Source: an uncultured Carboxylicivirga sp. (lineage in GTDB: Bacteria; Bacteroidota; Bacteroidia; Bacteroidales; Marinilabiliaceae). From it: a stretch of DNA of 64,000 bases. The DNA is taken from NCBI RefSeq assembly GCF_963668385.1, contig NZ_OY764327.1:1860001-1924000 (forward strand). Reading direction: 5' to 3'. The notes beneath the pieces are model-generated. The model was given only the letters and a program-made list of their open reading frames with translations. It ran no database searches and was not told the DNA's origin. Shown piece after piece: positions 49,450 through 54,133 of this stretch (the first letter of the stretch is position 1; each line of letters begins with the position of its first letter). A program made the translations under genes and the position numbers.

Positions 49450-49854
49450 TGTTTATATATATGTATTTTATAAGAGATTAATGATCTCGATAGGCATATT
49501 GATTCTCTTATTTTATTTATTCTAATATTATTTAATAAAAACGATTGATATTATATGATGATTTAATCTATTGTTATCAATACATAATCTGATTAATATT
49601 TTTATTAGTCATTATTATAGATGAAGTAATACATTCTAGATATAGATAAAGTATTTGTAATGATAGATGGATAAAAATTAAAATAGATAGACGATAAATA
49701 TTAATAGATAGTATAAAACATAAAAAGACAATAGAAATATAAAAACAGAAAGCTACAAAAGAAAAATAGAAAGAATATATATAACAATAGAATATCGATA
49801 GATCACTCCAAGTTACTGTTTTAATAATAAAAGTTGCTTAAGTATTAAATAAGT
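49450..49854. other. Very AT-rich low-complexity gap
   Basis: About 400 bp without ORF or RNA gene; dominated by GATA/ATAG-type words (e.g. AATAGATAG near 49680-49710) and A-rich purine runs. Confidence 0.4.
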
Positions 49855-50082
49855 ATGCGAATCAACAGTTGAACCCACTTTGGGTTTCCTTTATGATTAC
49901 GTTCCTATTCCACGGGTTCTCCCCGTGGCTATTCAAATTAAATCCTTTCAGGATTTGAAAATGTCAGAAGGACATTAACAATAATAGCCTCGTGCCGAGC
50001 GCGAGGTGACTAGTTGCCTAATGATACAACCCGAAAGTGGGTTGAACTTTGCTTTAAAACAATTTGAACTATTGATTCGCAT
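49855..50082. repeat. 228-nt multi-hairpin element bounded by 16-nt inverted repeats
   Basis: Outer arms ATGCGAATCAACAGTT (49855-49870) and its complement with one mismatch (50067-50082). Just inside, AGTTGAACCCACTTT (49867-49881) pairs perfectly with 50034-50048 (15 bp). Each of these arms can alternatively fold alone (AACCCA/TGGGTT at 49872-49886; CAACCC/GGGTTG at 50027-50044). Between them lie hairpins CCACGGG/CCCGTGG (49910-49928), AAATCC/GGATTT (49940-49956), ATGTC/GACAT (49961-49975) and CCTCG/CGAGG (49988-50006). No ORF spans it. GC is much higher than in the flanks. It could be a structured RNA or a REP/BIME-type mobile unit. Confidence 0.75.
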
Positions 50083-50112
50083 TAAGTACAGACTATAGAA
50101 AGTGTTTTGATG

Positions 50113-51897: not shown

Positions 51898-53145
51898 TTA
51901 AAGTCCGAATACCTCTTTTACCTTGTCAACATAGTCAAGTTTTTCCCAGGTAAAGAATTCAACTTCTTTTTTGATGGTTGTACCATTTTCGATAAACTCA
52001 ACTTCTTGTTTATAAGGAGTACGACCAACATGTCCGTAGGCTGCAGTAGGTTCAAAAATTGGGTTTTTCAAACCAAAACGTTTTACAATAGCACTTGGAC
52101 GCATATCAAAAATTCCCTCTACTTTATCGGCAATTTCGCCATCGGTAAGGTTTACTTTTGCAGTTCCATAAGTGTTGATGTACAATCCAACCGGTTTAGC
52201 AACCCCAATGGCATAAGCAACCTGAACCAAAATTTCGTCGGCAACACCTGCGGCAACAAGGTTTTTTGCAATATGACGCGTGGCGTATGCAGCTGAGCGG
52301 TCAACTTTAGAACTATCTTTACCACTGAAAGCACCACCTCCGTGAGCTCCTTTGCCACCGTAGGTGTCAACAATGATTTTACGACCCGTTAAACCGGTGT
52401 CACCATGAGGTCCACCAATAACGAATTTACCGGTAGGGTTCACGTGTAAAATGTAATCGCTGAAAAGATGTTGTTGATCTTCGGGTAAAAGTGCTTTTAC
52501 TCGAGGAATTAAAATATTTTGAACATCGTCCTTGATTTTAGCCAACATGGTTTCGTCTTCGTCAAACTCGTCGTGCTGTGTAGAAACAACTATTGTATGA
52601 ACCTTTAAAGGTTTATTGTTCGAGTCATATTCGATAGTTACCTGGCTTTTTGAGTCGGGGCGTAGATAAGTCATCACTTTTTCTTCACGACGAATAGCAG
52701 CCAATTCCTTCAATAATACATGTGATAGAAATAATGGTAAAGGAAGATAATCTTCAGTGTCTTTACAGGCATATCCAAACATCATTCCCTGGTCACCGGC
52801 ACCTTGTTCATCTTCGCTTTCGCGTTCAACACCACGATTAATATCAGCCGATTGTTCGTGAATGGCCGAGATAACACCACATGAGCCTGAGTCGAACATA
52901 TAAGCCCCATCGGTATAGCCAATTCGCTCAATTACACGGCGGGCAACATTCTGTGTAGGTACAAAACCTTTGGTTTTTACCTCTCCACTTAGTACTACTA
53001 GGCCTGTGGTTACTAAGGTCTCGCATGCTACTTTCGAGTCAGGATCCTGACGTAATAATTCGTCGAGAATGGCATCAGAAATCTGATCTGCTACTTTGTC
53101 GGGGTGGCCTTCCGATACTGATTCGGATGTAAATAAATAACCCAT
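51898..53145 (-). CDS. metK: S-adenosylmethionine synthase
   Basis: 415 aa. '[20 protein letters not shown]', '[20 protein letters not shown]', '[20 protein letters not shown]' and '[20 protein letters not shown]' are the three family signatures. Makes SAM from ATP and methionine. About 30 residues longer than the E. coli enzyme owing to C-terminal insertions typical of Bacteroidota. No SAM riboswitch was recognised upstream. Confidence 0.98.
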
Positions 53146-53438
53146 ATCAAATACTTTTAAACAACTTTACTTGAGTTGTATTACTATTATTACTAAAATT
53201 GATATGTGAAAAAAGGAAGTTAAAACGAAGTACGCGTTTTAGCACTTTTTTTGAGTGGTTGCAATCAGCCAAATCCTTCCACTTTTCACTGTTTGCAAAG
53301 TAATAAAAATATAAAATGTTGAGCAAACGAAATAAGAGTAATTTGTCTTGATTGAGCTATTTTACTTTGTTTTTGAGTGAGTTGCTTGATTGATTAACAT
53401 TTATGAGTAAATTTTTTGAAATTTTTTTCGAAAAAATA
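53146..53438. other. Gap between metK and the tRNA-Glu/rpsT unit
   Basis: No gene seen. A hairpin TAAAACG/CGTTTTA at 53221-53241 is followed by a T7 run on the + strand, of unclear use. The right end passes into the promoter at 53439. Confidence 0.4.
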
Positions 53439-53510: not shown

Positions 53511-53582
53511 GGTCCCTTCGTCTAGTGGTTAGGACGCAAGGTTTTCATCCTTGAAACAGGAGTTCGATTCTCCTAGGGACTG
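53511..53582 (+). tRNA. tRNA-Glu (TTC), copy 1
   Basis: 72-nt cloverleaf: acceptor GGTCCCT/AGGGACT, anticodon stem CAAGG/CCTTG with loop TTTTCAT (anticodon TTC), T-arm AGGAG-TTCGATT-CTCCT, discriminator G; CCA not encoded. Precedes rpsT by 37 nt, so it is probably processed from a joint transcript. Confidence 0.95.
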
Positions 53583-53886: not shown

Positions 53887-53958
53887 GGTCCCTTCGTCTA
53901 GTGGTTAGGACGCAAGGTTTTCATCCTTGAAACAGGAGTTCGATTCTCCTAGGGACTG
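53887..53958 (+). tRNA. tRNA-Glu (TTC), copy 2
   Basis: Identical in sequence to copy 1. Begins 15 nt after the rpsT stop and is followed by a terminator. Confidence 0.95.
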
Positions 53959-54061: not shown

Positions 54062-54133
54062 GGTCCCTTCGTCTAGTGGTTAGGACGCAAGGTTTTCATC
54101 CTTGAAACAGGAGTTCGATTCTCCTAGGGACTG
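54062..54133 (+). tRNA. tRNA-Glu (TTC), copy 3
   Basis: Identical to copies 1 and 2. Separated from copy 2 by a terminator, so it needs its own promoter or read-through. Confidence 0.95.

Follow-up and report, generated by a model that had tools for sequence, protein, structure and literature searches.

The 228-bp element at positions 49855-50082 of the window (the whole 64,000-nucleotide stretch analysed here, from an uncultured Carboxylicivirga sp.) is very probably, at roughly 0.86, a non-autonomous DDE transposon, i.e., a MITE, which has IS982-like ends, carries a REPIN/BIME as its cargo, and uses a transposase supplied in trans. Two mobile-DNA systems appear to be fused in this one element. 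REP palindromes, which are usually put down to RAYTs alone, would here owe their spread to an unrelated DDE transposase, and their abundance is then not necessarily a measure of RAYT activity. The 16-bp inverted repeats and the 5-bp target duplications are the reason why we read the element as a DDE-type MITE and not as a unit moved whole by a RAYT. The termini form a 16-bp inverted repeat with a single mismatch, just as the original prediction had it, and 11 of its pairs are unbroken. The left repeat, ATGCGAATCAACAGTT (49855-49870, plus strand), resembles the ends of IS982-like insertion sequences, the right repeat is AACTATTGATTCGCAT (50067-50082, minus strand), and the same pentamer, TAAGT, adjoins them on the outside at 49850-49854 and 50083-50087. 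The window copy has convergent ORFs on its two sides, the right-hand one ending 31 nt away, and no ORF of at least 60 aa overlaps it, in agreement with the predicted lack of a reading frame. Its GC content had been expected to stand out from both flanks, but is distinct on one side only: the element has 0.41 against 0.22 in the left 500 bp, and the right 500 bp, which are mostly coding, have 0.40.

Six local hairpins, where at least five had been predicted, lie between the terminal repeats and form a core of two palindromic REP-like modules that face each other, which is the inverted arrangement of a REPIN/BIME. Each module consists, in order, of an AACCC hairpin, a spacer of ~20 nt, a 7-8-bp hairpin, a TATT tag, and a further hairpin. 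In module 1, on the plus strand, the outer hairpin 1 (GAACCC..GGGTTt, 49871-49887) abuts the terminal repeat and is followed by hairpin A (CCACGGG/CCCGTGG, 49910-49928), the TATT tag directly 3' of it (49930-49933), and hairpin C (AAATCCT/AGGATTT, 49940-49956), the worst-kept helix among close copies with 85.7% of cells paired. In module 2, on the minus strand, the same parts are the outer hairpin 2 (CAACCC/GGGTTG, 50027-50044), hairpin B (CCTCGTGC/GCGCGAGG, 49988-50006), the TATT tag (AATA on the plus strand, 49983-49986), and hairpin D (AATGTC/GACATT, 49960-49976). A 22-nt tail (50045-50066) connects hairpin 2 to the right terminal repeat and places the AACCC at offset 23.

The host genome (G000; 6,271,090 bp in one contig) holds at least 28 copies, whole or partial, among at least 37 hits, and the count is a lower bound, as 40 of 56 candidates were scored. 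The element is not the single-copy sequence without covariation that would have told against the original prediction, and its stems covary across lineages (see below). We read the hits as 21 near full-length copies, four short copies with two hits each, three partial copies, and five single-module hits. In the short copies, of ~148 bp, everything between hairpin A and the hairpin-2 region is missing, and the five single-module hits show the one module that the element has in common with a second repeat family. In that family (G000 5295842, 5295352, 1477769, 196251, and 5197016; L033-L036 and L113), the hairpin-D module and TATT are followed by a different stem. Pieces of the element also match 24 of 198 related genomes, the more distant of them mostly through CCACGGG..CCCGTGG, and two of the 24 show the module layout around Y1 (IS200-type) transposase genes. 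The plasmids and phages searched gave no match. Gene context, based on ORFs rather than annotation, was assigned for 25 of 27 copies (two had too little flank): 13 lie between tandem ORFs, six between convergent, and five between divergent ones, with one unclassified, and six of the 25 overlap an ORF of at least 60 aa. Two copies elsewhere, L094 (G011:C11) and L093 (G009:C53), are interrupted or rearranged inside by ~240 and ~110 bp of extra sequence, respectively.

We attempted to score the flanks of 28 host copies, six of which had no recognisable end. Among the 22 scored copies, the 5-bp flank duplication is perfect in 14 and matches at 4/5 positions in four more, and the remaining four match at three or fewer. 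When the right flanks were shuffled among copies in 2000 rounds, the mean was 1.1 perfect duplications and the maximum six, and at lengths of 2-10 other than 5 no duplication count fell outside the range of its control. Three of the scored copies have nearly identical flanks; these are read as a segmental duplication and are not independent. The commonest targets were TATTA (13/88) and TAATA (10/88) in a collection of 88 elements, a set picked for a perfect 5-bp duplication and hence no test of the duplication itself. The true end patterns returned 83 elements against none for reversed and none for permuted ends, in loci partly fetched by the true end pattern. The element thus shows what is expected of a MITE, namely short (228 bp), dispersed copies that are non-coding in the window, bounded by inverted repeats of 16 bp and by a target duplication of fixed length (5 bp). 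A ~300-aa IS982-like transposase acting in trans would recognise the 16-bp inverted repeats and would insert the element at AT-rich 5-bp targets, which are then duplicated; the ends and duplications are seen directly, and the catalysis is presumed. The cargo carried in this way is a REPIN/BIME, whose hairpins stay paired through sequence change.

The same ends bound insertion sequences of 1031-1055 bp, found among the matches listed in a scan of public genomes by end sequence. Perfect 5-bp duplications flank, among the matches listed, L237 and L252 (both Flavobacterium, L237 from F. franklandianum), L251 (a Bacteroidales MAG), and L311 (a Flavobacterium MAG), and also two loci from the transposase search in the host's family (see below), namely L327, of that family, and L329, of the same genus. 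The duplication of L232 is 4/5, L250 and L287 have both ends with flanks that lack a matching duplication, and the other transposase-bearing loci examined are single-ended, decayed, or incomplete. A length of ~1 kb with a single DDE transposase of ~300 aa, here 297-300 aa, is typical of IS982, and IS982 (NF033520) was the best NCBIfam family for all four transposases tested (L237, L250, L251, and L252), at 104.9-123.5 bits against a curated cut-off of 130. Pfam DDE_Tnp_1 and DDE_Tnp_1_3 scored above their cut-offs for L237 and below them for L251, the two proteins tested. The partner ends begin with AT; those of IS982 begin with AC, according to the accessible text of PMC7335449. Because the NF033520 scores lie under the cut-off and the ends begin with AT, not AC, the partner is, as judged from sequence, IS982-related rather than proven IS982.

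An autonomous partner with the same ends was found in relatives, and a search of the host genome for an IS982-like transposase gave no hit; since no matching gene was found there, the host copies look stranded. Partner transposase hits occur in 16 of 71 genomes of the host's family, many as fragments only, and the copy in the congener G012 is decayed, with two stops. Two other transposase families were tried as partners and rejected on 52 loci (L140-L191): for PF13701 (presumably of the IS1380 kind), loci were taken for 30 of 69 listed places, and for PF01609 (DDE_Tnp_1), for all 22 listed places in seven genomes; neither set contained such an end pair with a perfect duplication. The PF13701 elements L151 (G005) and L152 (G047) have ends like CCTAAATTGAGCGATT and AT-rich 5-bp duplications of their own, and G047 holds 16 same-scoring copies among the matches listed. 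We also set aside L192 (G043), whose ends stand 1289 bp apart around ORFs of at most 164 aa, none of them readable as a transposase, and a four-copy end match in G047, which is taken as chance, as it lies in what we take to be 16S rRNA.

Many elements with these ends hold quite different interiors. A strict core classifier, which overlooks REP cores that have decayed, placed 52 of the 88 collected elements in "other core", and this number is therefore too high. Between the same ends, the MITEs L125, L126, L193, L203, and L204 share cores of another kind, which contain long hairpins (AAGTAAGTCAGGG.. type) and form a further cargo class.

In 1.65 Mb of loci, 89 unique modules fitted the layout against 1, 0, and 0 in three shuffled rounds, and since these loci and those of the end patterns were partly fetched by element similarity or by the ends, the counts bear on layout and pairing and not on how frequent these features are genome-wide. 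The TATT tag gave these 89 modules, TTAT, which overlaps TATT, gave 38, and five other tags gave 0-10. Of the modules, 37 lie within recognised MITEs and 52 elsewhere, several of the latter with decayed ends; one of the 89 (the second in L247) looks spurious. Five modules surround a Y1 transposase gene in G007 (L059) and seven, alternating in orientation, surround another in G022 (L081); as the modules led us to both loci, they say nothing about how frequent the pairing of modules with Y1 genes is. The two transposases have 146-148 aa, and that of L059 matches NCBIfam IS200. Together with the protein of the host locus L037 (146-154 aa for the three), they show, read by eye, a Y---Q--HH motif, which is that of Y1 subclass 1.2 in the accessible part of PMC6006769.

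The host genome has four Y1_Tnp matches (L037-L040), and no module of the element's type was found in the loci around them. Another observation concerns a host Y1 gene with the subclass-1.2 motif at L114 2986-3447 (host genome 4,863,985-4,864,446), which was found by Pfam and not by repeats. Different hairpin repeats adjoin this gene, as direct repeats of 50-67 nt (74-90%) on both sides. If a resident RAYT, a Y1 HUH transposase, moved the whole REPIN/BIME and the terminal repeats belonged to the REP system, the inverted pairs of REP-like modules, the same layout around the Y1 genes of L059 and L081, and the four host matches would all be accounted for. We consider this reading scarcely credible. 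It is largely refuted by the 5-bp duplications that bound the whole unit, as IS200/IS605 members have no terminal inverted repeats and make no larger target duplications in the consulted part of PMC2817692. The same ends also occur on elements with unrelated cores and on DDE insertion sequences, and the host Y1 loci L037-L040 lack such a module, the one closely examined having other repeats beside it. Of the original idea of a REP/BIME-like mobile unit moved by a RAYT, the dispersed REP/BIME-like modules were borne out, but not the RAYT as mover of the whole unit.

The junction between the two parts of this MITE is conserved. We picked 33 elements that have an AACC[C/T] hairpin close to each end and a duplication of 4/5 or better, 25 from Carboxylicivirga and the other eight from Mariniphaga sediminis (L223), G022, G061 (two), G136 (two), a Bacteroidetes MAG (L247), and a Saprospiraceae MAG (L294), which makes about eight lineages in all; L294 qualifies weakly, its hairpin A being broken. 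In 33/33, the AACCC at one end, of the hairpin 1 type, begins 0-1 nt inward of the terminal repeat, and at the opposite end this distance is 10-37 nt. From the presence of this asymmetric junction in each lineage examined, we infer that the chimera is probably the product of a fusion at the common TTGAA(CC), the point of contact between the IS end (..GGTTGAA) and the REP end (TTGAACCC). Alternatively, and as a rival view of the origin only, IS982-like ends may have taken up the host's REPIN repeatedly, rather than a single ancestral chimera having diverged. The same ends often enclose other cores, and the two modules of the G022 MITE resemble, by eye, the two types that alternate in the Y1-linked array of the same genome; moreover, the TTGAA common to the IS end and the REP end would allow such a junction to arise repeatedly. 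Against these points stands the asymmetric junction in all 33 qualifying elements, and we take repeated capture to be a serious possibility but the less likely origin.

The original prediction proposed aligning the copies for covariation, and it is seen across lineages and weakly among close copies. In 11 representatives, four of the seven pairs of hairpin A changed on both sides (shuffled mean 1.2, reached by 4/500), with a covariation score of 0.332 against 0.170 shuffled (0/500). In hairpins B and 2, four of 14 pairs changed on both sides, corresponding to 4/8 in hairpin B, although one of these four is unpaired in 8/11 rows, and the score was 0.226 against 0.122 shuffled (0/500). The number of pair types was not raised for hairpin A or for hairpins B and 2 in the 11 representatives. 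Among 40 close copies, three of 57 pairs changed on both sides, fewer than after shuffling (mean 4.1), and the number of pair types was lower than shuffled as well; the cell count (21 vs 12.7 shuffled, 2/500) and the score (9/500) were high. The rows of the 40-row and the two 11-row alignments were chosen by hand from the collected copies.

The long-range helix predicted as a perfect 15 bp is not perfect: its arms (49867-49887 and 50028-50048) are 86% complementary over 21 nt, and at most 10 bp pair without interruption, whether or not G-U pairs are counted. In the host clade (28 copies from G000 and G001), 95.3% of its cells are paired compared with 94.0% for the local hairpins; in the other clade (12 copies), the values are 77.6% and 90.6%, and three inner pairs form in 0/12 copies, one of them through a gap. 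No covariation of the long-range helix was seen among the 40 aligned close copies. Since the helix is well paired in the host clade and degraded in the other, the two exclusive folds proposed earlier are possible on paper in the host genome, but of the two the fold conserved in both clades is that of the local hairpins.

The element folds strongly both as RNA (MFE -82.3 kcal/mol, z -8.5) and as DNA (z -8.7), with 0/200 shuffles as good in either case. This folding, the covarying stems, and two terminator-like hairpins within the element would suit a structured ncRNA gene or cis-regulator that was spread by transposition and kept its hairpins for the work of the RNA, a reading that is compatible with the MITE and rivals only the role given to its core. 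However, the hairpins are those of the free REP arrays, the ORFs flanking the 25 copies stand in every orientation, and promoter-like sites are at chance level (seven found, shuffled mean 5.5). No Rfam family reaches its gathering score, the only match at E<=1 being CRISPR-DR63 at 21.4 bits against 37. An RNA function of the core is accordingly improbable, and a free-standing structured ncRNA was rejected, as it has no Rfam family and its positive support is confined to folding and covariation.

Returning to the MITE with a REPIN core, the core may serve as a Y1 substrate, aid transposition, or shield neighbours by ending transcription at its two terminator-like sites. The Y1-linked arrays suggest a REP substrate for Y1 subclass 1.2. 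A bolder proposal, which we rate as unlikely, is that the core is acted on as single-stranded DNA by a subclass-1.2 HUH/Y1 protein and the ends by the IS982-like DDE transposase, as a stable partnership of two systems kept across Bacteroidota because the core still does something. If true, it would give the orphan Y1 subclass 1.2 its missing REP substrate.

IS982-derived MITEs in Bacteroidota (PMC9769881), REPINs with RAYTs (PMC3116915), and degenerate-REP fusions into inverted repeats (PMC6006769) are already known, as far as the accessible texts go. A close counterpart is MITECca01 of Cardinium, which is likewise a ~240-bp, non-coding, mostly intergenic sequence of many copies in Bacteroidota, with the ends of an IS982-family IS (PMC9769881, in part). 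However, MITECca01 derives from a parental IS and is tied to intact copies in the same genome, and a REP/REPIN core is not described in the consulted portion of that paper, whereas no parent was found for the host element and the Carboxylicivirga-type element spans several families. REPINs/BIMEs with RAYTs, in the available parts of PMC3116915 and PMC2817692, share the two inverted REP-like modules, the arrays beside a Y1 gene (here seen in G007 and G022), and stems that vary yet stay paired. They differ in that DDE-type inverted repeats and target duplications enclose our element, its modules have multiple hairpins, and its TATT tag stands 3' of the stem instead of the GTAG-type tag at the 5' side.

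In the case of TnpA Y1 subclass 1.2, the motif Y---Q--HH and the length of 146-154 aa agree with L059, L081, and L037, but its members generally lack typical terminal IS200 structures in the text available (PMC6006769), whereas the L059 and L081 genes sit inside REP-like arrays. TIRYTs, Y1 proteins with terminal inverted repeats, provide a precedent, as some of their repeats are said, in the same partly accessible source, to come from degenerate REPs fused to unrelated sequences (PMC6006769). TIRYT repeats flank a Y1 gene, whereas the DDE-type ends of our element, with their 5-bp duplications, enclose a REPIN. IStrons also combine two mobile systems in one element, in their case a group I intron ribozyme and an IS (PMC4227781, in part), rather than a REPIN and MITE ends. 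The BrickBuilt MITE of Porphyromonas gingivalis is intergenic, with a complex repeated interior in a member of the Bacteroidota, but the interior is a 23-nt minisatellite according to the consulted part of PMC4596501, unlike the REP core. A REPIN inside an IS982-type MITE was not found described in the titles and abstract beginnings of the open-licence literature searched. The recurring asymmetric junction, together with the stems that covary across lineages, offers a testable case of a REPIN maintained in a MITE over large distances within the Bacteroidota.

Other features of the window lie to the right of the element. A SAM-II riboswitch (Rfam; 53229-53288, minus strand) stands upstream of the ORF 51898-53145 (minus strand), which looks like S-adenosylmethionine synthetase, an ordinary setting for it. 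Three tRNA genes with equal Rfam scores (53511-53582, 53887-53958, and 54062-54133) are arranged around a small ORF, presumably that of ribosomal protein S20.
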